From the NCBI RefSeq assembly GCF_017352195.1, contig NZ_CP071445.1:2914001-2978000 (forward strand): DNA of 64,000 bases, in the 5' to 3' direction. This document shows, in pieces, positions 28,202 through 41,056 of the stretch (the first letter of the stretch is position 1; the number at the start of each line of letters is the position of its first letter). Position numbers and translations under genes: made by a program. Origin of the DNA: Sedimentibacter sp. zth1 (GTDB taxonomy: Bacteria > Bacillota > Clostridia > Tissierellales > Sedimentibacteraceae). Below the pieces are notes generated by a model. The model searched no databases. It saw nothing but the letters and a program-made list of their open reading frames with translations, and was not told the origin of the DNA.

Positions 28202-28945
28202 ATGACAAAATTAGTGTCTTGGTTTGACGGTGAAGTATATAATAAAGAGATAGAATTAAGTTTTCATGATTGCGATTTTAAAAAGAGAATTAAGATAGCA
28301 ACTGTTATGGCATTAGCTTCTGATACTGCGGGTAAAGATTACACAGCTAGAGGAATAACTCATGCAAAAATGCTAGAAATTAAGCAAGTTATGTTACTTG
28401 CTAGGTATCACATACATTTTAACAAAATACCTAAAGTAGATGAAATTTTAACAATTAAAACTTGGGAAAAAGGAATTAAGGATGGTTTTGTACTTAGGGA
28501 TTATGAATTTATTGATTCAAGTAATGAAATTAGTATTACTACTTCAAGCACATGGTTTATAATTAATCATGAAACAAGGAAAATAGTAAGACCTAAAGCA
28601 TTTCATGGTAAAGTTATAGGCAATAGCGATAAAGATATTGGTTGCGAGCCTTGTCATAGATTACAAATTGATGAAGAAAAGCTATTATCTTTAGGAAAAC
28701 ATATTGTAAATTTTTCAGAGCTTGATGGTAATGGTCATTTAAACAATGCTAATTATGGAAACATTATTTTTGATGTTATGATGGATAATTTTCCTAACAA
28801 AGAATTTAAAGATTTTTATATTAATTATATAAAAGAAGCTAAAGCAGGTGAAGTAATTTCTATATTTAGCTATGAGGATAATAATAAAATTTATATTGTT
28901 GGTAAAATAGAAACTGAAACTTGTTTTATGTGTTTGCTTGCTTGA
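28202..28945 (+). CDS. Acyl-ACP thioesterase
   Basis: A 247-residue double hot-dog protein of the FatA/bacterial acyl-[ACP] thioesterase family. The first half has HDCDFKKRIKIATVMALASD and LARYHIHFNKIP. The second carries the catalytic segment NFSELDGNGHLNNANYGNII with Asn/His as in the N-x-H-x-N-N motif. It releases fatty acids from acyl carrier protein and so sets chain length. The ATG follows GGGGAGAG. The repeat element directly upstream lies in or next to its promoter. No fatty-acid genes adjoin it. Confidence 0.9.
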   Translation: MTKLVSWFDGEVYNKEIELSFHDCDFKKRIKIATVMALASDTAGKDYTARGITHAKMLEIKQVMLLARYHIHFNKIPKVDEILTIKTWEKGIKDGFVLRDYEFIDSSNEISITTSSTWFIINHETRKIVRPKAFHGKVIGNSDKDIGCEPCHRLQIDEEKLLSLGKHIVNFSELDGNGHLNNANYGNIIFDVMMDNFPNKEFKDFYINYIKEAKAGEVISIFSYEDNNKIYIVGKIETETCFMCLLA

Positions 28946-29017
28946 TGAGTTTTTTATACGTGGCTATTTTGTTTTTACTATGCTTTATTTTAATAATGTA
29001 AGCTTTAAGCCTAAAAG

Positions 29018-29050
29018 TCTGCTTCTAATTTTAAGAAAGCAGATTTTTTT
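29018..29050 (+). terminator. Terminator of the thioesterase gene
   Basis: TCTGCTT pairs with AAGCAGA around an AT-rich loop that itself can extend the stem, followed by TTTTTTT. Confidence 0.75.
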
Positions 29051-29087
29051 GATTTGAATAAATAAAGCTAGCCTATGAAGCAAAAAG

Positions 29088-29276
29088 AAAACTACATTAA
29101 TTTTGTAATCACATTGCGTGTAGAAAATTGTAACTTCAGTACACTCCATAATGGTCAAATGCGTGGGACGGGGTACAGTTCAGTCTACCTTGACCAAAGG
29201 TCATTACGTTTGACTTCGTACAATTTCAGCTACACTACATGAATGTTACAAAATTAAATCCGTTTTCTTTTCTAAA
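29088..29276. repeat. Imperfect long inverted repeat, candidate MITE or structured RNA
   Basis: The left end (AGAAAACTACATTAATTTTG, 29088 on) and the right end read backwards (AGAAAACGGATTTAATTTTG) agree at most positions. Further in GTGTAG...ATTGTA and TACAATTT...CTACAC pair again. The centre is visibly more GC-rich (GCGTGGGACGGGGTA). No transposase and no clear target-site duplication. Confidence 0.45.
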
Positions 29277-29687
29277 TAAATATACTGAAAGTATTGAAAA
29301 ATCAGCAAAAGCTTATAGTTAATTTAACCAATATACGGTAAATATAACAGGACGATAAAATTGTTAAATACTCACAATTTTATATGTTGTCGAAAAATGA
29401 CACGTTTTAACATTTTAAAAATTTTCCAAAAACGTCATGGTGTTTTGTAAAAACATATGATAAAATGTAAAATATAGTAAAAATATACATAATATAAAAT
29501 ATATGAATTTTATATGTATATTGTAGCAAGTTCTAACATAATTAAATAACTTATAGTGATTATAATTTTACTTACACTATCTGCTAACTCCCAAGCAGAT
29601 AGAAAAGTCTTTATGGGGGTAATAGACTGTGAGTTATAATTATATATACAGTAAAATTAAATTTGCTGTAAAAATTAATAAAAAATT

Positions 29688-29707
29688 TAGTGTCTACTTT
29701 GACACTA
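29688..29707. promoter_or_regulatory. Inverted repeat in the bacteriocin-like gene leader
   Basis: TAGTGTC and GACACTA pair perfectly around TACTTT, 15 bases before AAGGAG. It may be an operator or an mRNA hairpin. Confidence 0.4.
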
Positions 29708-29733
29708 TCGATTTATAAAAAAGGAGAAAATAT

Positions 29734-30159
29734 ATGAAAAAGTTTATATGTATGTTTATTTCAGTTCTTATTGCTACTACTATGGTAATGCCTGTATCAG
29801 CAGTTGAGAAATCTGAAAATATTATTGATTATACTAATAAAATTGAAGTAAAAGCTGAAAGAGATTTAAGTAATGACGTTCTGCCGTATGGATTGTTTGA
29901 CGACTATAATGTATATAGTGGTGGTTCTTGGGTTATGGATGGATTAGTTGGAGTTGGTGCAAAAGGCTGGACAAATATAGTTGAAAAGAGTGATGGAACA
30001 TATAGGTATCATTATACAAATGTAGCTGTTTATGCTGATCATGATGAAAATACTGTTTATACATCTGGTAGAGAGTGGGGCTCAGGTAAAGTTGAGGCTT
30101 CAACTGGTGATCTTGGAGAGGGTGCAATGCACCATTATAGGATTTTTTATGGTTGGTAG
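29734..30159 (+). CDS. Candidate lactococcin-972-like bacteriocin precursor
   Basis: A 141-residue secreted protein. Its Sec signal peptide (MKKFICMFISVLIATTMVMP, cleavage near VSA-VE) is followed by a pro-like segment and a Gly/Trp/Tyr-rich end: YSGGSWVMDGLVGVGAKGW, YRYHYTNVAVYADHDE and a final HYRIFYGW. Lactococcin 972 family members have a GG-x-W opening, aromatic-rich beta strands and a C-terminal W. They are encoded before a membrane protein and an ABC ATPase, as here. They bind lipid II and block septum formation. The sequence match is loose, so the call rests partly on context. The ATG follows AAGGAG. Confidence 0.5.
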   Translation: MKKFICMFISVLIATTMVMPVSAVEKSENIIDYTNKIEVKAERDLSNDVLPYGLFDDYNVYSGGSWVMDGLVGVGAKGWTNIVEKSDGTYRYHYTNVAVYADHDENTVYTSGREWGSGKVEASTGDLGEGAMHHYRIFYGW

Positions 30160-30257
30160 TAATAAAAATTTATTGATAATATATTTTTATTAATCGAAAG
30201 CAAGTTTTATTGAAATAACAATTTTTGATAAATTACTAGTTCAACATGTAAGAAATG

Positions 30258-30304
30258 GATGTCGCATAATTATTATTTTTTCAAAAAAGTAATTATGCAA
30301 CATC
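30258..30304 (+). terminator. Long stem between the bacteriocin-like gene and its ABC genes
   Basis: GATGTCGCATAATTA and TAATTATGCAACATC pair with one mismatch. Inner TTTTTT and AAAAAA extend the stem. It lies in the 171-base gap and could attenuate transcription so that precursor exceeds transporter. Confidence 0.65.
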
Positions 30305-30330
30305 TACTATAATTTTAAAAGTGAGGAAGT

Positions 30331-31359
30331 ATGACTAAAAAATTAGTTTTGGGTTTCTCTATAATAATTTTATTATTGCAATTATTGTTTATATCATATA
30401 TTAATTATAATGATTTTGTTGATTTACAAATAATTACATCAAATTCATTAATTTCAGATCAATCTGTTTCTTTGATTTTAAGAGCAGGCGATGTACCACA
30501 ACTATATGAATTATTAGAATTAATAAAAATTTATCCTGATATAACTCTTTTGTCAAAACTTTATAATTTTGACAATTTGGTAGTATGGGGACTTTGTGGG
30601 AATTGTTATTTAGATAACAATGCAAATTCATTGATAAATGGAAGGTTTTTTGCAAAAGATGATTTTTTTAAGGAAGATTTCAAAGCTGTAGTAAGTGAAA
30701 ATATATTAAATTCAGATAATTGCTATTTAGATAAAAACGAAAAAATATATTTTAAATTCAACAATAATAATTATGAAGTGATTGGTGTTATATCATCAAA
30801 TATTAGTAATATGCTTGATAATACTGTTTTTGTCAATTTAGATTCACTTAATATTGAATTTCTAAATAAATTTATTATAGATGGTACAGATAATGAAGTT
30901 ATAGATAATGCTGTAAATAGCATAATACAAGAATATAATGTTGATATAATAAGTGAAAATAATAATTTTGTAGAAAGATATATATTTAACGATGTTGATA
31001 AACATATATTGAGTATTTTTATGGTTATTTTTATTAGTATACTTATAATTACACTTTCAATGTTCATTTTACATTACTATAGCGAAGAAATTAAGGTTAA
31101 AAGAATAATAGGCATAAGTTTTAAAAGAATTTTGTCTGATTTGTTAAAAAACATAATTACTTTAACTTTGATAAATACCGCTTTTTTTGTTACTGTTTAC
31201 ACAATTATTTATTACAAAGTTTTGCAAGAAATTCATTTATGTTTTTATTTTTCTCATGTGATTATATTTTCGTGTATTATACTTATAATTATTAGCTGGA
31301 TAATATATCTGTATATGCTTATATCAAATAATTTCTTTTATAGAAACGGAGTGAAATGA
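30331..31359 (+). CDS. MacB/FtsX-type half-permease 1 of the bacteriocin-like locus
   Basis: A 342-residue membrane protein with the MacB topology: one N-terminal helix (about residues 5-27), an extracytoplasmic domain of about 190 residues, and three C-terminal helices (from about residue 226) with the FtsX-like VKRIIGISFKRIL loop. Such proteins couple ATP hydrolysis to movement of a substrate outside the membrane. With the next gene product it likely forms a heterodimer served by the ATPase at 32669. In lactococcin-972-type loci a membrane protein and ATPase confer export or immunity. The ATG follows GTGAGGAAG. A gap of 4 bases to the next gene shows an operon. Confidence 0.8.
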   Translation: MTKKLVLGFSIIILLLQLLFISYINYNDFVDLQIITSNSLISDQSVSLILRAGDVPQLYELLELIKIYPDITLLSKLYNFDNLVVWGLCGNCYLDNNANSLINGRFFAKDDFFKEDFKAVVSENILNSDNCYLDKNEKIYFKFNNNNYEVIGVISSNISNMLDNTVFVNLDSLNIEFLNKFIIDGTDNEVIDNAVNSIIQEYNVDIISENNNFVERYIFNDVDKHILSIFMVIFISILIITLSMFILHYYSEEIKVKRIIGISFKRILSDLLKNIITLTLINTAFFVTVYTIIYYKVLQEIHLCFYFSHVIIFSCIILIIISWIIYLYMLISNNFFYRNGVK

Positions 31360-31363
31360 AAAT

Positions 31364-32650
31364 ATGAAGTATAAAAATAGCAACTATATACATATATTAA
31401 TATGCTTTTGCTTGTTGACTATCGCCATGACAGTATTTATGCTTTCAAATAAAAACTATAATAAAGTAGAACATAAAATAATAGATTTTGATAATAAAAA
31501 TGTTGAATCGACATATTTGAGAGTAAACGATGTTTATGGACAAGATAATCAAAAATCATTATCTGAGTTTTTTGCAGAAAAAGATGCATTGAAACGAATG
31601 AAACAGTTTTGCAGTATTTTAAATGAAGAATTTAATTATTTGGAATTTGATAAGCAATCCTTAGTTATACAGTCTGTTTTTAATTATAAGGATGAATTTC
31701 GAATTGATTATGGAAGTAAATATTTTGGAGAAAACGACAATATTGGTATATCTTTGAAATCTGTGCAGATAGGGAAAAATGCTTATGATGAATTTAATCT
31801 TGAAAATCAATTAGCTGATGGAAGAGGATTTGAACCAAAAGACTTTATATTTGATAATAATAAAACAGTTTCAGCTATATTTGGGCATGAATATTCAGAG
31901 TTAATTAATATAGGCGATACAATAAATTTTGAATATTTATCTAAAGATATATCTGTAACAGTTATAGGCTTTTTTGAAAAAGATACTTTAGTGACATTAA
32001 ATAATAATATATTTTTTTTAGATCGGTATATCACAATCCCTTCATTGGATATGGACTTTATTCCGTTAAATAAAGATGATGAAAGATTTCAAAAGATACT
32101 ATATTCGTTAAAAAACTGGGGATATATAAAAGTAAACGATGGTGAAGATTATTATGATTATAAAAATAGAATTGATGATGTAAGTAAAGCTTTAGATTTG
32201 AAATATGTTGTAAATGAAGCTTACATTTATAAATATATAAAAAATATTTCAAACACAATTAATTCAAGCAAAGGAATATTTTTAATCGCTTCGATAATTT
32301 TGCTTCTAATATTATCAGCCATTTTTGCTTATATATATATATGGAATTACAATAAAAACAAAAAAATCTATGCAATTCATTTAATTTGTGGTTGTAATTT
32401 TCTCAGAATGAAGCTAAAGATATTTTTTGAAATATTTATACAATTTATATTATCATTGGGCATTGCAGGTTTAGTTAACAGATTATTGTTAGGGCATAAT
32501 AGTATTTATGTATCTGATCGCATTTTACTTAATAAGGCAATTAGTCAAACTACAAGATTTTCATTTATTATAATGCTTGTAATATGTCTAGTATTAAATA
32601 TTTATATTAATAAAAGTAATATTTATTCTTCTATCAGAAAAGAAAATTGA
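31364..32650 (+). CDS. MacB/FtsX-type half-permease 2 of the bacteriocin-like locus
   Basis: A 428-residue protein with the same plan as its neighbour: N-terminal helix (about residues 9-27), extracytoplasmic region to about residue 300 containing the MacB-core-like FGHEYSELINIGDTINFEYL, then three helices (from about residue 303) with a short basic loop before the last two. It is larger than half-permease 1, so the transporter would be asymmetric. It starts 4 bases after the previous stop. The ATPase gene follows after 18 bases. Substrate is inferred only from context. Confidence 0.8.
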   Translation: MKYKNSNYIHILICFCLLTIAMTVFMLSNKNYNKVEHKIIDFDNKNVESTYLRVNDVYGQDNQKSLSEFFAEKDALKRMKQFCSILNEEFNYLEFDKQSLVIQSVFNYKDEFRIDYGSKYFGENDNIGISLKSVQIGKNAYDEFNLENQLADGRGFEPKDFIFDNNKTVSAIFGHEYSELINIGDTINFEYLSKDISVTVIGFFEKDTLVTLNNNIFFLDRYITIPSLDMDFIPLNKDDERFQKILYSLKNWGYIKVNDGEDYYDYKNRIDDVSKALDLKYVVNEAYIYKYIKNISNTINSSKGIFLIASIILLLILSAIFAYIYIWNYNKNKKIYAIHLICGCNFLRMKLKIFFEIFIQFILSLGIAGLVNRLLLGHNSIYVSDRILLNKAISQTTRFSFIIMLVICLVLNIYINKSNIYSSIRKEN

Positions 32651-32668
32651 TAATAAAGGGAAATATAT

Positions 32669-33328
32669 ATGATTGAATTTAAAAGTATTAGTAAAATTTT
32701 TAAGTATAAAAATACAGAAATAAAGGCACTTGATAGTGTTAGTTTACATATAGATAATAATGAAATGGTTGCAATTATGGGACCAAGCGGTTCGGGTAAA
32801 ACAACATTGTTGAATATAGCAGGTGGGATATTCAAACAAACCAGTGGAGAATATTTATTCAATAATAAAACTGTGCTGGGTAACGAATCGGATATGGCTA
32901 AATTTAGAAGTGATAATGTTGGATTTATTCTACAGCATTCTGCATTAATTAATAATAGAAATGTTTTATATAACATATCATTGCCATTAAAATATAAAAA
33001 TATCGAAAAAAACAAAATAAAAGAAAAAGTTTTGATAGTTACTGATTCACTTGGTATTTCAAATAAACTTGAAATGTATCCTCATATGCTGTCTGGTGGA
33101 GAGTGCCAACGTGTAGCTATTGCTAGAGCAGTTATTACAAATCCAAATATTATTTTAGCGGATGAACCAACATGTTCTTTAGATGATAACAATAAATACG
33201 AAGTATTAGATATATTAAAAAAATTAAACAAAGAAGGTATTACAATTATAATAGCAACTCATGATGATACTGTAGCTCAAATTTGTGATAGAAAAATAAA
33301 TATCAAAAACGGAAAAATTTTTATTTAA
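32669..33328 (+). CDS. ABC ATPase of the bacteriocin-like locus
   Basis: A 219-residue ATPase of the LolD/MacB class: Walker A IMGPSGSGKTTLLN (near residue 36), Q-loop FILQHSALIN, signature MLSGGECQRVAIARA, Walker B IILADEPTCSLDD, switch ATHDD. All catalytic residues are present, unlike the remnant at 11341. It would energise the two half-permeases encoded upstream. The ATG follows AAAGGGAAA. It is the last gene of the four-gene locus. Confidence 0.93.
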   Translation: MIEFKSISKIFKYKNTEIKALDSVSLHIDNNEMVAIMGPSGSGKTTLLNIAGGIFKQTSGEYLFNNKTVLGNESDMAKFRSDNVGFILQHSALINNRNVLYNISLPLKYKNIEKNKIKEKVLIVTDSLGISNKLEMYPHMLSGGECQRVAIARAVITNPNIILADEPTCSLDDNNKYEVLDILKKLNKEGITIIIATHDDTVAQICDRKINIKNGKIFI

Positions 33329-33794
33329 AATGTTTTGGTTATTGATGCTTATTCTAGTGAGAGGTTTTATTGTTCAGAGAGATTGTAATAAATACATAAT
33401 ATAGCGGATTTATGTAGTTTGAGTATTAAAGTATCTTAAATAAAAAAGCAAACAAATGAATAAACTATGATTTAGGACAAAAAGAACCGTTCCCAAAATA
33501 AATAAAATATAAATTGAACTAGTAGTGTAGTCTGTGGTTTATATAATATAAGCTATAGGCTTTTTTGCTTTTATTAATGAAACAAATTATTCTAAAAAAG
33601 TTAGTAATGTAAATAATAAATCTATGTAAAATCAAAAGTTAATGTATTTACAATTACAAACAGAGAAGAGCTTACTGACTGAATATAAAATTTCATTCAA
33701 GAAAGATAAAAAACTTGCTATCATTCGTAGAATGTTGTAATATTATATTAGATAGTGTAAAATATACCAATATATTATGAAGGGTAGGTAAAAA
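33329..33794. other. Intergenic region without a recognisable gene
   Basis: AT-rich. The only structure seen is a short stem AAGC/GCTT with a following T-run near 33549-33565, which may terminate the bacteriocin-like operon. The end leads into the response-regulator ribosome binding site. Confidence 0.4.
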
Positions 33795-34175
33795 ATGGAC
33801 TGCAAAAATTTAAAAATATTAATTTGCGATGATTCAATAATAAGTAGAAAGAAAATAAAAGACATTTTAGCAAAATTAAGTTGTAGTAATTTATACGAGG
33901 CAAAAGATGGACAAGAAGCTATAGATATGTATATTAAATCATGTCCAAACGTTGTTTTTATGGATATTACTATGCCTGTTAAAACTGGAATTGAAGCATT
34001 ACAGGAAATAATTAAAATTAATAAAAAAGCAAAAGTTATTATTACTTCATCTTCAATAACACAATCACATATAAAAGCTGCAATTGATGCTGGTGCTTAT
34101 GATTTTATGCAAAAACCTTTTGTAGAAGAACAAATAAATAAAATAATAAAAAGAGTTTCAGAGGGTGGTGAATAG
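33795..34175 (+). CDS. CheY-like single-domain response regulator
   Basis: A 126-residue receiver domain without an output domain. The acidic pocket is ICDDS (residues 10-14), the phosphoacceptor Asp is in VVFMDITMP (near residue 57), the switch Thr/Ser in VIITSSS, and the lysine in MQKPF (near 106). It would be phosphorylated by a CheA-type kinase and bind the flagellar motor or another target. The next gene, directly at the stop codon, encodes a CheX-like protein, so this pair probably tunes chemotaxis. The ATG follows GAAGGGTAGG. Confidence 0.92.
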   Translation: MDCKNLKILICDDSIISRKKIKDILAKLSCSNLYEAKDGQEAIDMYIKSCPNVVFMDITMPVKTGIEALQEIIKINKKAKVIITSSSITQSHIKAAIDAGAYDFMQKPFVEEQINKIIKRVSEGGE

Positions 34176-35212: not shown

Positions 35213-36106
35213 GTGAAAAATAAAATATGTGTCACTTTATTTATTTTTTTAATAATACTATTTATCATGGTAATTAATATTGATGATGTTAATATTAGTA
35301 AAAAAGCCAATAAATCTATAACGCATACTGGTAAAAATTATATAGAATGTTTATACTATAATCCTGTCGATTTCATACAAATAAAGGAATTTGAAATAAA
35401 GGAAACAGGTATAATACATGGGTGTATTGTACCACATCATTTGGTAGCTAAAGATTTAATACATGAAACATTTCAAAACATAATAAGATGTAAAAATAAA
35501 TACGAAACAGTAATATTATTCGGACCTGACCACCAAAGCATGGATAAGGGAAAAATTTTTACAACACTGAGAGATTATCAGACCCCATATGGTATTCTGA
35601 ACACAAATAATCAATTGACGAGTAAACTGATAAATGAAGGTTTAATAGTTGAAAACAACGAAAAAATGACAATAGAACATTCAACATCAACAATAGTTCC
35701 GTTTATAAAGTATTATTTAGGCGATGTTGATGTAGTAACATTTGCACTGACTAAGCAGACTAAATTAGAACAAGTTAATAAGCTGATTGATGAAATTTAC
35801 AAAAATATAGATATTGAAAATACATTATTTATAGCATCAGTTGATTTTTCACATTATTTAACGCTTGATGAAGCTAATACAATGGATACTATAAGCATGG
35901 ATAAAATAGAAAACAGACAAATAGACGATATCATGAAGTTTACTAATGATAATTTGGATTCTCCCATAAGTATTGTTACAATGCTTAAGCTTATGGAAAA
36001 GGGAAAAGCGAATAACATTTACAGACTAAATCACAGCAATCAAAATCTTATACTTACTATAAAATCTAATCAAACTACAAGTTATATAACATACTTATTT
36101 TATTAA
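35213..36106 (+). CDS. MEMO family protein with membrane anchor
   Basis: A 297-residue protein. An N-terminal hydrophobic anchor (about residues 4-22) precedes the MEMO1/AmmeMemoRadiSam-B fold. HGCIVPHHLVAKD, VILFGPDHQS, YQTPYGILN, IEHSTSTIVPFIKYYLGD and ASVDFSHYLT supply the His/Asp positions equivalent to the metal site of MEMO and related class III extradiol dioxygenases. Most AmmeMemoRadiSam B proteins are cytosolic and accompany an AMMECR1/radical SAM pair, absent here. An exported version next to an alpha-2-macroglobulin gene (24 bases downstream) is unusual. Start GTG 35213 follows GGGTGG. Confidence 0.82.
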   Translation: MKNKICVTLFIFLIILFIMVINIDDVNISKKANKSITHTGKNYIECLYYNPVDFIQIKEFEIKETGIIHGCIVPHHLVAKDLIHETFQNIIRCKNKYETVILFGPDHQSMDKGKIFTTLRDYQTPYGILNTNNQLTSKLINEGLIVENNEKMTIEHSTSTIVPFIKYYLGDVDVVTFALTKQTKLEQVNKLIDEIYKNIDIENTLFIASVDFSHYLTLDEANTMDTISMDKIENRQIDDIMKFTNDNLDSPISIVTMLKLMEKGKANNIYRLNHSNQNLILTIKSNQTTSYITYLFY

Positions 36107-36130: not shown

Positions 36131-39100
36131 ATGTTAAAAAGAATTATTGCATTATTATTATGCGTAGCTTTTCTACTGACAGCATGTTCCAACAAAACAG
36201 ATACTACAATCAACAATACGGATAGTACGGATGATTTGCCACAAGGAGAAGTGGTTCTAGCAACTAAGGATAATAAGACATTACTTGATAATTTTAAGCT
36301 CACAGCTACAAAAGCAAGTGCTGAAGGTATTGAAAGTACCAGCGGTTTTACATTAACTTCAAAATCAGAAATACAAAAAGACACTATAAAATCAAATCTA
36401 AAAATTATACCACAAACAGATTTTAACATAGAAGAAGTATCATCAACTGTTTATAATATTGTCCCAACTGCTAATTTGAAAAATAATTCTGTTTATCAGA
36501 TTAAGTTTAATGAGGATGAAGAAATTTATTCGTGGGCTTTTCAGACTAAAAAAAATCTTCAAATCACTGAAACAATTCCTTGTGACGGAAGTAATTATGT
36601 TCCGGCACAAACAGGTATAGAAATGTATTTCACTCTCAATGAAATTGAAAATATTGAGGAATACTTTGAAATAGAACCACATGTTGAAGGAAGATTTGAG
36701 CAAAAAAATGGAATGGTTGTTTTTGCACCGTCAGAAAAATTGGTGAATAGCTGCAAATACACTGTTACAATAAAAAAAGATCTAAGTGCTAAAAATAGTG
36801 ATGAAACACTAAAGGATGATTATACTTTTTCGTTTCAGATAGAGGATGAAGAGGCGTATAGTATTTGTATAGAACCTTTTAGAAATATTTATGAAGGCAA
36901 TGTAAAATTTATTGAAGGTTACTTGGATAGAGAATATGAAAATGAAGAATGTATTGTAAATATCTATAAGTATGATTCATATGATAGCTTTGAAAAATGT
37001 GTCATAAATTATATTAACTTAAATAAGCTTGAAGATGATTGTACAGAGGATGAAAATCTAACGCTAACTAGCTCAGTTGCGCAAAAACCGTATATGGTTG
37101 AGACGTATTATAGGAAAAAGGCAGTATATGAATTGCCTAAAGATTTAGCTAAGGGATATTATCTAACAGAGATTGTCTATAAAGATAATATAAAGAGGTA
37201 TGTATTTTTACAAATCAATGACTTACTAATTTATAATGCAAACACGCAAAGTGAGACATTTGTATTTGTTGCAGATGGAAAAACCAATAAAGGTATTGGG
37301 GATGTTAGTGTTTGTAAGAACAATGAATTCATTGGGAAAACAAAAGATGAGGGTGTACTTATTAAAAAAATAGAAGATAAAAAAATTGTAGACGAAAAAA
37401 TTAATGATACATTTTATATGACATTTAAAAAAGAGGGCTATAATAATTTTATATTTGCTAAAAACTGCATTGATAATACTTACTACGACTATAGATATCG
37501 CCAAAGAACTAATAACTCAACAGATTATTTTATTTATTTAGATACTGATAGACCAGTATATCTTCCTACAGATACTATTAATGTTTGGGGATTTTTAAGA
37601 TACAGAGATGACAGGTTAACTAAAAATGTTAGAATTGATTTGGTGGAAAATGAAACAAAAATTATTTTGGATAGTAAAAAAGCTGAAATAAGTGAGATAG
37701 GAAGCTATGAAACTTATTTTGACATAAATAATATTACATCATATGGTTGCTGTATAAAAGTATATGATAATGATATATTGGTTGATAGCAGGGGTGTAAG
37801 TATAGCTAAATATACAAAGCCTTTATTTAAACTGTCGGGAAAGCTTGATAAGGAATATTTGTATAGTGGAGATGATTTATCTTATAAATTAAATGCTAAT
37901 TTTTATGATGATGCTCCATATCCTAATTTGAAAGTAGATTATAGAACATGTCTTTTGAAGAATGGTTCTAATATTCAATATACAGAAAAGAGTAATGTAT
38001 TAGCACTTGATGAAAATGGAGAATATACTACAAAAGTTAATACTGATGTTAAAGCAAATACATGGAGACCACAAACAATATATGTATACTGTTTTAACAA
38101 TGAAGCGGAGGATAAGCAAGTTAAATGTTATAACACATCTAAGGTTTTTCCGAAAAAAGTAATGCTTGAGGTTGAACAAAATAACAAAAAAGAACCTAAA
38201 AAATTTGATATTTTACTTCACAAATTAGATTTAGCAAATTATAATGCTGATGAAAATGATTATACATCACTCAGAAGTGATCCTATGAGTGGTAAAGTAA
38301 AGCTTAATATTGTTGAAAGATATTGTGAAACTAAAAAAATCGGTGAAGAATATGATTATATAAATAAAGTAAATGTAATAAAATATAAATCATATGAAAT
38401 AGAAAATACTGTTATTGATGAATACGTAGATATATCAAATGGACTGTATAATTTTGAAATTCCAAACTTTAATTCTGAAAGAGAGTATAAAATTACTGCT
38501 TATTATGAAGATGGTATTGGTGGAATATATGAGGAATTTTGGATAGGTAGATATTTTAATTATGCAAATGATGATAAAATTTATCAAATAGAACACAAAA
38601 AAAGTTGTGATTCTAGTTATAAATTCAGTTACAGAGTAAATGAAGAGGTTAATTTGCAATTAACATATAATGGTATACCTGTAGAAAACAGCAATAATGA
38701 TAATTTAGTATTGTTAATGTTAAGAGAAAACATTGTTGATTATAATATTGGTGAAGATACATCAGTTGAATTAAATTTTGAAGAAAAATATATACCAAAT
38801 GTTCAACTAGAAGGAATATATATTAAAGATGGTTTTATGTATCCTATCCGCTACAGCTCAGGAGTAGATTATGACGAAACAGAAAGAAAGATAAGTTTTG
38901 ATGTATCTACAGATAAGGATAATTATAAGCCAGGTGATGAAGTAACTTTAAATATAAAAGCCTACGATGAGAACTATAAACCGTGTAAGGCAGATGTTAA
39001 TATTAGTATTGTGGATGAAGCATATTTTGCTGTTTTCGGAAAAAGTACCGATACTTTGGGTGAACTTTATGCAACATATTATGGTACTTCAATATTAAAC

Positions 39101-41056
39101 AGTTATATGTCAAATATATACTCAATTCCAGAGGAAATGTGTCCAGAAATGGGTGGCGGTGGAGGATATGATGATGTACTGAGAGATGATTTTCGAGATA
39201 CAAATGTATTTGACACTATAACTACCAATGATGATGGTAGCTTGACGTATAAATTTAAATTAGCTGATAATTTAACTTCTTGGAGGATAACACATCAAGC
39301 AATTTCAGATAAAATGTATGCAGGAAGTGGAACAAAAAATATAACAGTTAGCTTACCGTTTTATGTAAACTTAATAATGGGTGATGAATATCTAAAAGAG
39401 GATAAAATATGTGCGACGCTTAGAACCTTTGGTACTGAAGCAACTGAAGGCGAAAAAGTTCAATATACAGTAAAAATTAAAAATAAAGCTACCCTTGAAG
39501 AAAAAGAGTATAAAGTAACAGGTATAATAGGTGAATATACAAATATTTATCTTGATAAGCTCGATTTGGGTGAGTACGAAATATATGCCTACGGAAGTTA
39601 TAGCGATTTTAAGGATGGTGTAAAAAAAGATTTCAGAGTAGCTGATTCTTTAATATATTTTAATAATACAGATTATTATAAATTAACTGATGATACAGTA
39701 TTAGATGAAGTTTGTTCTAATGCGGTAATTACACTGTTTAATGAAAGCAAATCAGACTTTTATAATAGTTTGAAAAATATCTCGTATGGTTACGGAGGTA
39801 GAAGAATAGATCAAACTGTAACTTCTATGATTGCAAATAAATATATGAACGAATATTTTGATGCTAACCAAAGCTATAATGAAAAGGATTTGTTAGATGA
39901 ACTGGCTAAGTATGAGTCTAAAAATGGTGGATATAAATTGTTACCTTATTCTAAGGAAAATACAGAGTTAACAGCTAAACTTATAAATTTATACAGCAAT
40001 AACTATATGGATGCAAAGGTCAAAAGATATTTTTATAACATAATTGATTCAGCAGAAAATTATAATACAGATGTTGCTGCAGCTCTATGGGGATTAAGTA
40101 ATTACAAAGAGCCTGTTCTTCTTACCGTTTACAATTTACTTGAGAATGAAGAATTAGAAGTCAGAGATAAGCTCTATCTTTCACTTGCACTTACTGAATT
40201 TGGTGATTATGGTACAGCTTATAAATACTATAAGGAAATTCTTGATAAGAATGTAATAACAAAAGCAAATTATTTATATCTTGACAATAGCATAAACGAC
40301 GTAGACAGTTATGAGCTTACATCTCTGATGTCAGTGCTTGGGCTTGAATTAGGTGATATAAACAACAGTGATAATTTGTTTAAATATATATATAATGTTC
40401 CAAGTGAGTACACACTATCTAATTTAGAACAGTTAATGTATATTACAAACAGAGATATTATGAGCCTTGAAGAAATAAAAAATCTTTTCGGGGAAATAAC
40501 AGTTACTGTAGATGGAAAAAGTAAAGATTATAAATTAAAGTTTTTTAACACAGAGTCATTTTCAATACAAAAAGAGAAAATTAAGGACATAAGATTTACA
40601 AACATAAAAGGTGAAATTGCTTGCAACGTTGATGCACTTGGCAACAAAGATGATTTAGACAAAAATAAAACTATACGATTCTCACTAGATGTATCATATG
40701 GCTTAGAAAAGGGTGGTTTAGGTCAGACAGAATTCAAACAGTCAGACTTGTTAAAAGTGATAATTACACCTACTATTAAGCCAAGTGTTGAATCTTTATA
40801 TTATGAGATTACTTATATAATTCCTGCAGGGTTTAGGTTTATGGAGACAGATAATAAAAACGAGTCTTATGTGAAACAGAATGGTCAGAAAATAACAGGA
40901 ATGTGTTCTTATAATAATAAAGATGGTGTTAAACCAATGATAATTTATATGCAGGCAGTTCAACCAGGTGAATATGCAATTGATTATGTGGTAATGAAAG
41001 ATTTATTCTCAAGTGATTTAAATTATATTGAAAAGAGTAAACTGATAATTAAATAA
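36131..41056 (+). CDS. Alpha-2-macroglobulin-like lipoprotein without thioester
   Basis: A 1641-residue surface lipoprotein: signal peptide with lipobox LTAC (Cys20), Ig-like domains, the MG2 strand YLDTDRPVYLPTDTINVWGF near residue 465, a second GDEVTLNIKAYDENYKPCKA macroglobulin domain near 935, a glycine-rich bait-like stretch (MCPEMGGGGGYDD near 1010), and the A2M core NLTSWRITHQAISDKMYAG near 1045. Where the thioester CxEQ should begin the alpha-helical domain it reads SYGYGGRRIDQTV, so the covalent trap chemistry is absent. Bacterial relatives trap proteases at the cell surface. It is preceded by the MEMO-like gene in the same orientation. The ATG follows GGAGG. Confidence 0.92.
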   Translation: MLKRIIALLLCVAFLLTACSNKTDTTINNTDSTDDLPQGEVVLATKDNKTLLDNFKLTATKASAEGIESTSGFTLTSKSEIQKDTIKSNLKIIPQTDFNIEEVSSTVYNIVPTANLKNNSVYQIKFNEDEEIYSWAFQTKKNLQITETIPCDGSNYVPAQTGIEMYFTLNEIENIEEYFEIEPHVEGRFEQKNGMVVFAPSEKLVNSCKYTVTIKKDLSAKNSDETLKDDYTFSFQIEDEEAYSICIEPFRNIYEGNVKFIEGYLDREYENEECIVNIYKYDSYDSFEKCVINYINLNKLEDDCTEDENLTLTSSVAQKPYMVETYYRKKAVYELPKDLAKGYYLTEIVYKDNIKRYVFLQINDLLIYNANTQSETFVFVADGKTNKGIGDVSVCKNNEFIGKTKDEGVLIKKIEDKKIVDEKINDTFYMTFKKEGYNNFIFAKNCIDNTYYDYRYRQRTNNSTDYFIYLDTDRPVYLPTDTINVWGFLRYRDDRLTKNVRIDLVENETKIILDSKKAEISEIGSYETYFDINNITSYGCCIKVYDNDILVDSRGVSIAKYTKPLFKLSGKLDKEYLYSGDDLSYKLNANFYDDAPYPNLKVDYRTCLLKNGSNIQYTEKSNVLALDENGEYTTKVNTDVKANTWRPQTIYVYCFNNEAEDKQVKCYNTSKVFPKKVMLEVEQNNKKEPKKFDILLHKLDLANYNADENDYTSLRSDPMSGKVKLNIVERYCETKKIGEEYDYINKVNVIKYKSYEIENTVIDEYVDISNGLYNFEIPNFNSEREYKITAYYEDGIGGIYEEFWIGRYFNYANDDKIYQIEHKKSCDSSYKFSYRVNEEVNLQLTYNGIPVENSNNDNLVLLMLRENIVDYNIGEDTSVELNFEEKYIPNVQLEGIYIKDGFMYPIRYSSGVDYDETERKISFDVSTDKDNYKPGDEVTLNIKAYDENYKPCKADVNISIVDEAYFAVFGKSTDTLGELYATYYGTSILNSYMSNIYSIPEEMCPEMGGGGGYDDVLRDDFRDTNVFDTITTNDDGSLTYKFKLADNLTSWRITHQAISDKMYAGSGTKNITVSLPFYVNLIMGDEYLKEDKICATLRTFGTEATEGEKVQYTVKIKNKATLEEKEYKVTGIIGEYTNIYLDKLDLGEYEIYAYGSYSDFKDGVKKDFRVADSLIYFNNTDYYKLTDDTVLDEVCSNAVITLFNESKSDFYNSLKNISYGYGGRRIDQTVTSMIANKYMNEYFDANQSYNEKDLLDELAKYESKNGGYKLLPYSKENTELTAKLINLYSNNYMDAKVKRYFYNIIDSAENYNTDVAAALWGLSNYKEPVLLTVYNLLENEELEVRDKLYLSLALTEFGDYGTAYKYYKEILDKNVITKANYLYLDNSINDVDSYELTSLMSVLGLELGDINNSDNLFKYIYNVPSEYTLSNLEQLMYITNRDIMSLEEIKNLFGEITVTVDGKSKDYKLKFFNTESFSIQKEKIKDIRFTNIKGEIACNVDALGNKDDLDKNKTIRFSLDVSYGLEKGGLGQTEFKQSDLLKVIITPTIKPSVESLYYEITYIIPAGFRFMETDNKNESYVKQNGQKITGMCSYNNKDGVKPMIIYMQAVQPGEYAIDYVVMKDLFSSDLNYIEKSKLIIK

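Follow-up and report, generated by a model that had tools for sequence, protein, structure and literature searches.

A candidate bacteriocin locus with two half-permeases in Sedimentibacter sp. zth1 and its relatives in genomes and on plasmids

Loci for lactococcin 972 and its kin, as described in two papers, consist of a precursor gene, a gene for a DUF1430 or immunity membrane protein and an ATPase gene (PMC12345188, PMC11796350). A 2024 paper states that immunity and transport genes have been verified in no locus of this type, and counts scbBC without scbA in 157 of 571 pneumococci (PMC11796350). A lactococcus with the whole Lcn972 plasmid withstands 1600 AU/ml, compared with 12.5 for the sensitive host (PMC4055356). 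The self-protection of these producers is unsettled. Here we describe a locus in a stretch of 64,000 nucleotides of Sedimentibacter sp. zth1 (contig NZ_CP071445.1, positions 2,914,001 to 2,978,000; hereafter the window, whose numbering is used unless a contig or locus is named), in which the gene for a small exported protein is followed by genes for two half-permeases and an ATPase. An initial annotation had read it as a candidate bacteriocin locus of lactococcin 972 type. Judged from its sequence, the locus is lactococcin-972-like in layout, with an exported precursor before a MacB/FtsX-type ABC set, and it would be bacteriocin-type on that ground; the earlier reading appears right in kind and wrong in family. 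It probably represents a separate, unnamed family of bacteriocin/immunity cassettes, in which a MacB-type transporter with its permease in two genes would give immunity, the antibacterial action and the immunity being suggested by the arrangement of the genes.

The precursor and the related loci

Four genes run on the + strand. They encode an exported protein of 141 amino acids (aa), here called the precursor (29734-30159), a half-permease of 342 aa (half-permease 1 or short half, 30331-31359), a half-permease of 428 aa (half-permease 2 or long half, 31364-32650) and an ATPase of 219 aa (32669-33328). There are 4 bases between the two half-permease genes and 18 between half-permease 2 and the ATPase gene. 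The precursor has a signal peptide at about residues 1-23 (29734-29802), which was read by eye and is composed of KK, a hydrophobic core and VSA. The mature protein of 118 residues contains 17 aromatics (11 Y, 4 W and 2 F) and zero Cys, which fits the earlier description of a Sec-exported, aromatic-rich small protein. Its C-terminal domain (residues 76-141, 29959-30156) carries the family motif in the form YHYxxxxxY...SGRxWG...FYG.

The resemblance to lactococcin 972 that had been claimed for this protein did not hold at the sequence level. PF09683 gives no match to the precursor at E<=1, and TIGR01653 is absent among its NCBIfam matches at the same threshold. In the whole genome of zth1, PF09683 has one weak match elsewhere (C1:200499, E 0.64) and none at the precursor. 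With a profile of five lactococcin-972 family members (from one genus, with fused permeases), 706 of 2000 shuffled sequences scored as well as the precursor, and hhalign gave 0.2%. The precursor was rejected as a lactococcin 972 because both family models fail to match it and the family profile stays at the level of shuffles.

A C-terminal pattern, roughly YHYxRAxxE...DSGRxYG...A.SP...A+TYYG, is common to the precursors of Sarcina p6, Paenibacillus, Priestia and the genomes G257, G303, G455 and G557. We built a C-terminal profile from these seven precursors, the clade of the window being excluded. It ranks the window precursor 1st of 187 window open reading frames (ORFs), with E 8e-4 and 0 of 2000 shuffles as good. 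The precursor is also 1st in all seven leave-one-out profiles (E 1.7e-4 to 0.033), and again with a profile of the full-length precursors (E 0.015). When the Terrisporobacter precursor was added and the profile was run against the 3.1-Mb genome of zth1, a search that scores only candidates passing a loose first look (here 6), the single match at E<=10 was the window precursor (E 0.42). From these comparisons the window precursor is likely akin to the motif-bearing family, weakly by score. None of ten precursors scanned reaches the cut-off of any Pfam or NCBIfam family, and mining with those models therefore misses them; those on plasmids carry the annotation 'hypothetical protein'. The proposal that the precursor may be a new subgroup can thus be kept, as a precursor of a new group outside these families.

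The precursor is rare. A tblastn search with the Paenibacillus precursor against 72,556 plasmid records found 4 records at E<=1, and in each of the 4 it lies beside a split transporter set; the window precursor gave just two chance-level matches in the plasmid records (E 0.6-0.7). Within the order, the window precursor occurs in three genomes besides its own (4 of 249), one of these holding just a C-terminal remnant. A further precursor profile has three other matches (G508, G410 and G407, E 2.5e-4 to 0.008); it was built with loci that it recovers (window, G257, G303, G455 and G557) and is not an independent count. PDB searches with the precursor yielded nothing useful.

This gene order, from the small exported protein through the short and the long half to the ATPase, occurs sparsely in other genomes of the phylum and on plasmids. 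The long-half profile A6 matches 17 of 398 phylum genomes at E<=1e-5, including that of zth1. Ten of the other 16 were opened, and those left out match weakly (G316, G262, G397, G490, G508 and G592). Short half, long half and ATPase lie in series in eight of the ten (G257, G303, G455, G578, G588, G557, G342 and G333), the upstream half of G342 matching the long-half profile alone, and weakly (7.7e-4). G553 has a broken long half and a short ATPase ORF, and in G456 a contig end falls about the long half. Across the intact sets of the opened genomes the long half measures 392-432 aa. Split transporter sets were also found on plasmids of Sarcina (p6 and p1), Paenibacillus polymyxa (two) and Priestia. 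The Priestia short half spans the start of the record, and its first part, the only one compared, matches at E 1.2e-5. The full four-gene order is present on Sarcina p6, the two Paenibacillus polymyxa plasmids and the Priestia plasmid, and in G001, G257, G303, G455 and G557. Nearer relatives of the window locus are G001, L016, L019 and L020, the contig of the last beginning within half-permease 1. Outside the cassette, the genes annotated on the 11.3-kb Sarcina plasmid encode a replication initiator and a toprim protein, and flanking genes vary, by eye, among the loci.

The window locus has the gene order of the split loci, their C-terminal motif (with a weak E-value) and an ATPase that groups with theirs. 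No relatives were found in viral contigs with two short peptide patterns per scan, by which near relatives only are detectable, and phage records hold no relatives of the Paenibacillus long half. The initial annotation had set the two half-permeases against the single membrane protein of typical loci. Both are present, but a scattered family of split loci shares the arrangement.

The transporter, the hairpin and the flanking DNA

Each half-permease has 1+3 hydrophobic segments, with a large hydrophilic domain between the first and the second. In a simple hydropathy scan the segments fall at residues 6-24, 229-247, 275-293 and 310-328 of half-permease 1 and at residues 9-27, 304-322, 353-371 and 397-415 of half-permease 2, with extracytoplasmic domains of about 200 and 275 aa, respectively. 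Half-permease 1 matches MacB_PCD (PF12704) with 24.2 bits, below the cut-off of 27. Half-permease 2 reaches the cut-off of no Pfam or NCBIfam family and has no match to PF12704 or PF02687. A PDB search detected a weak match of its C-terminal part to the MacB structure 5gko (E 0.085); two glutathione S-transferase chains, aligned to a different part of the long half, outscore MacB there (0.0024 and 0.0053).

The ATPase is intact, with the Walker A motif GPSGSGKTT, the signature LSGGECQR and 103.4 bits to ABC_tran, so that the earlier description of two half-permeases of different size with an intact ATPase is accurate. Its best NCBIfam model is TIGR03608 L_ocin_972_ABC (210.3 bits, below the cut-off of 254.85), and models for LolD, FtsE and MacB are among its five best matches. 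In PADLOC, 33 families match the ATPase, mostly general ATPases among the 25 listed, and there is no match for the precursor or either half at E<=0.01. The set has the ATPase motifs, the four transmembrane (TM) segments per half and the large domain between TM1 and TM2 of MacB/FtsX (type VII) transporters, and it is without a permease match above a Pfam cut-off.

Typical lactococcin-972 loci carry a single membrane protein, as the initial annotation stated and as both the fused proteins found here and the published descriptions indicate. Neither half of the window matches TIGR01654 or PF07242 at E<=1, and TIGR01654 detects nothing in the zth1 genome at E<=1e-5 (2 of 11 first-look candidates were scored). 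A TIGR01654 search of the 398 phylum genomes found 16 genomes, 4 of them above the cut-off. Sixteen fused permeases have 656-776 aa and are laid out as a short half followed by a long half; the window halves, in the same order, sum to 770 aa. In 11 of the fused proteins the hydropathy scan gives eight segments, and in 5 it gives six or seven. By hhalign, half-permease 1 scores 95.8 against the N-terminal half of the fused profile and 24.5 against the C-terminal half. Half-permease 2 is about equally close to both halves, with 93.9 for the C-terminal and 91.2 for the N-terminal one in a wider alignment, and 74.4 and 61.8 in a narrow one. G303 has both types side by side, a fused permease of TIGR01654 type and its ATPase coming directly after a split set. 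In the 11-kb region concerned (L076:4088-14972) the row consists of a split set that lacks a precursor, a regulator-like gene, a split locus that is complete and this fused pair. Variants were also seen among the lactococcin-972-type loci: L035:1067-4157 has tandem precursors, each with a fused permease, and L028:1958-2827, from the genus of L035, has, upstream of the precursor, an additional protein of 289 aa that resembles a half-permease.

In the ATPase tree, 19 split-set and 12 fused-set ATPases form two groups (support 92/90 and 100/100), and the window ATPase lies among the split ones. The split ATPases stand on one side of a branch in a simpler model too (support 87). As nearest kin, the split and fused groups have a support of 36/88 in one model, and in the simpler model the fused ATPases group with two other ATPases of the zth1 genome (support 89). 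Eight of 13 own-genome loci tried as outgroup gave a row for these trees, and near-duplicates such as Sarcina p1, Paenibacillus YT9, L035, L042 and L044 were omitted. Fission of a fused permease gene was rejected as unproven, since the ATPase trees do not settle the question.

A long stem-loop (30258-30304) had been reported to separate the precursor from the transporter genes, and a hairpin does fold at 30256-30306 on the + strand (-18.8 kcal/mol, z -5.9, 0 of 200 shuffles as good). It is kept, just before half-permease 1, in the window, G001, G021 and L016, which are the four loci that keep the spacer. The bases of the four hairpins partly differ and their arms match (covariation judged by eye, uncounted). 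Folded alone, they give -17.7 to -23.0 kcal/mol, values that none of 500 mononucleotide shuffles per hairpin reached; the best fold upstream of a precursor-less copy in the zth1 genome is just -7.0. An ordinary terminator was rejected, the hairpin being without a T run and absent from the list of the terminator scan. Because the T run is lacking, we take it to serve in processing, stabilisation or attenuation, and it probably controls how much precursor message there is relative to transporter message.

The leader of the precursor gene (29577-29733, + strand) has a ribosome-binding site, GGAG, before the ATG. Inverted repeats had been noted in it, and one of them is a 9-bp perfect stem at 29577-29602; the segment 29577-29640 folds with -18.3 kcal/mol (z -3.0, 1 of 200 shuffles as good). 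The remaining repeats are weak and imperfect and lie within A+T-rich DNA. Promoter-like matches in 28900-33800 number 48, without excess over shuffles (43.7 +/- 6.5), and therefore no promoter is claimed. Rfam has no family at cut-off in this interval. Terminator-like sites number 3 there, compared with 0.5 +/- 0.7 in shuffles, and one of them, a stem-loop with a T tail found by pattern scan at 33529-33561 (+ strand), lies about 200 bases 3' of the ATPase gene. Beyond this site is a response-regulator-like gene at 33795, 466 bases past the locus; no sensor kinase adjoins the locus. Farther downstream are a 297-aa protein (35213-36106), which may resemble the MEMO family, and a 1641-aa lipoprotein (36131-41056), which may be similar to bacterial alpha-2-macroglobulin-type proteins.

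Directly upstream of the locus there is a repeated element (29060-29290) resembling a miniature inverted-repeat transposable element. It contains internal 26-base inverted repeats (29083-29108/29246-29271) that are 85% complementary. Eight near-complete copies of the stretch, this one included, are present in the genome; they are 80-100% identical, and their ends are approximate.

Precursor-less and reduced sets

The genome of zth1 holds a second transporter set without a precursor at C1:419729-422893 (L074:4730-7894), with half 2 at C1:420929-422212. Its halves are 88 and 94% and its ATPase 98% identical to those of the window. A hairpin comparable to that of the window is absent, and clear identity of the upstream DNA is limited to the last ~26 bases before half-permease 1. 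The ratios of nonsynonymous to synonymous substitution rates (dN/dS) between the two sets are 0.42, 0.23 and 0.21, inside the range of other pairs of the clade, and the spare set therefore seems to be still constrained. In this copy a different repeated element, about 140 bases long, has changed the end of half-permease 1; counting this one, 8 copies of the element are at least 90% identical.

Sets without an intact precursor were found elsewhere. L016 and L019 have precursor fragments only. The precursor of Sarcina p1 is cut to 40 aa, and that of p6, in the same strain, is intact. The precursor-less set of G303 (G303a) is 99.2% identical to the intact set of that genome, and the match begins 22 bases before half-permease 1.

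Two plasmids carry less than the full transporter. One, from Virgibacillus (L026:4210-5726), encodes an exported protein of 162 aa and, after it, a lipoprotein, its lipobox recognised by eye, that corresponds to the extracytoplasmic domain of the long half only, with no hydrophobic segment after the domain. It matches positions 80-284 of the long-half profile with 80 bits, the best of 500 shuffles reaching 4.5 bits. In the 10.6-kb stretch around it, neither the short half nor the ATPase has a relative. Close by are genes for a sigma factor and for a regulator-like protein of helix-turn-helix type. The other, a 5.6-kb Terrisporobacter plasmid (L024:3102-4776), encodes a motif-bearing precursor and a long half, which scores 116 bits when itself left out of the profile; on the entire plasmid, neither the short half nor the ATPase has a relative. 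Most simply, the Virgibacillus lipoprotein and the Terrisporobacter long half would be the domain that meets the bacteriocin.

Proposed function, alternatives and known systems

We propose that the precursor is exported through Sec and loses its signal peptide. The mature aromatic-rich protein may then act outside the cell on neighbours, and, judging by the analogy of lactococcin 972, its target would be lipid II or the cell wall. Half-permeases 1 and 2 could pair as unequal partners on two ATPase subunits, like LolC/LolE on LolD, and so make up a MacB-type (type VII) machine. Machines of type VII are thought to move extracellular domains with each ATP stroke, and not to pump across their own membrane. 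MacB is described as a mechanotransmission machine (PMC8277102). The extracellular domain of the long half would recognise the bacteriocin made by the same cell, which the ATP stroke would strip off the membrane or the target, resulting in immunity; the hairpin 3' of the precursor gene would adjust the two messages to each other. A more specific proposal is that this is a new family of Sec-exported bacteriocins whose immunity machine has two permeases, with the extracellular domain of the long half as the bacteriocin receptor. On this view, that domain became separated from the transporter at least once, as the lone surface lipoprotein of Virgibacillus, and in the Terrisporobacter cassette the long half serves with neither ATPase nor partner; immunity through binding and immunity through ATP-driven removal would be variants of a single system. 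We offer this tentatively.

Other explanations were considered for the transporter and for its exported partner. The ABC set might export or mature the precursor rather than give immunity, as the title of TIGR03608, 'putative bacteriocin export ABC transporter', and the position of the transporter genes next to the precursor would suggest. However, the precursor carries a signal peptide and therefore needs no exporter. Transporter-only copies persist without a precursor, and no ATPase relative accompanies the lone lipoprotein domain of Virgibacillus or the lone long half of Terrisporobacter. For these reasons immunity is favoured, and export is unlikely. The secreted protein could also be a signal or sensor ligand, with the ABC set as a BceAB-like detector. 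Bacitracin-sensing BceAB-type transporters belong to the same superfamily, according to PMC8277102, and transporter-only copies would fit listeners; yet no sensor kinase is adjacent, the response-regulator-like gene lies 466 bases away past a terminator-like site, and the gene content of the 11.3-kb Sarcina plasmid better suits a bacteriocin cassette. A sensory role seems improbable to us. A housekeeping or envelope-stress module, with the exported protein as substrate-binding or scaffold partner of the transporter, would agree with the general architecture shared with LolCDE and FtsEX, and with the different upstream gene of some sets, such as that of G588. Such a module would not be expected to be so rare and scattered (precursor in 4 of 249 order genomes, long half in 17 of 398 phylum genomes), plasmid-borne and repeatedly precursor-less, among flanking genes that differ by eye, and we regard it as rather unlikely.

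The window locus may instead be a lactococcin-972 locus by descent, its fused permease having been split in two and its precursor having diverged past recognition. The gene order and the short-half/long-half layout are those of the fused permeases, half-permease 1 shows a match to the N-terminal half of these proteins, the ATPase has TIGR03608 as its best model, and split and fused sets adjoin in G303. However, ATPases of split and fused loci fall in separate groups, with the nearest-kin support of 36/88 and a simpler model that pairs the fused ones elsewhere (89). There is no sequence link between the precursors, and both halves could derive independently from FtsX-type permeases. Common descent is a possibility of some substance, clearly less likely than a separate family.

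Several observations weigh against a bacteriocin/immunity cassette of the kind proposed here. The link of the window precursor to the wider family is weak by E-value (0.42 in its own genome), and the exported protein of Virgibacillus resembles other precursors loosely. A chromosomal partner could supply the parts missing from the Virgibacillus and Terrisporobacter plasmids. Pairwise dN/dS cannot assign constraint to one copy, and the predicted models have no usable fold, the mean predicted local distance difference test score (pLDDT) being 30.4 for the precursor and 36.5 for half-permease 2. In G021 the precursor is intact, half-permease 1 ends after about 96 residues, and no relative of half 2 or the ATPase is present in a 16-kb stretch; if the precursor is still made there, its own immunity is lacking. 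Six sets (G578, G588, G342, G333, G303a and G303c) are without a recognisable motif-bearing precursor upstream, with a 219-aa one-segment protein in its place in G588, and the transporter may thus have other partners.

Among the papers listed by searches of the open-access PMC literature, no two-permease locus of this kind was found. In sequence, the two-permease arrangement and the precursor family differ from those of described lactococcin-972-type loci. The two-gene permease, the transporter-only copies near intact loci and the lipoprotein form make the question of immunity directly testable.

The locus can be set beside four known systems. In lactococcin 972 loci, and also in those of streptococcin B and mediterrocin, an exported small protein is likewise followed by a permease and then an ATPase. 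Their permease has a short and a long extracytoplasmic domain, as in the window halves, and transporter-only derivatives are known, the scbBC of pneumococci (PMC11796350). Further marks of lactococcin 972 (structure 2LGN) are a mature protein with a beta-sandwich fold, lipid II binding and a block of septum formation. The window locus differs in that its precursor is unrecognised by the family models or the five-member profile, its permease is in two genes unrecognised by TIGR01654, and its ATPase is below the TIGR03608 cut-off and in a separate tree group. In lantibiotic immunity of the LanFEG/NisI type, protection comes from an ABC transporter or a lipoprotein, by which the cell-wall-active bacteriocin of the producer is removed or bound. 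The lone lipoprotein of Virgibacillus beside a small exported protein is similar to NisI. LanFEG is not known to have large extracellular domains, and its permease fold differs from that of the window halves; in addition, no modification enzymes were seen at the window locus. MacB, FtsX and BceAB differ from the window set, in which the ATPase is unfused, the two halves are unequal and the operon has no adaptor (MacA) gene. They share with it the 1+3 segments and the large domain between the first and the second, a likeness that is weak by score for half 1 (to MacB_PCD) and for half 2 (to MacB structures). LolCDE differs in gene order, no lipoprotein substrate is known for the window set, and the window ATPase groups with split-locus ATPases and not with Escherichia coli LolD. 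However, LolCDE also has two different 4-TM half-permeases and one ATPase, and by analogy the window proteins may assemble as an unequal dimer on an ATPase dimer.

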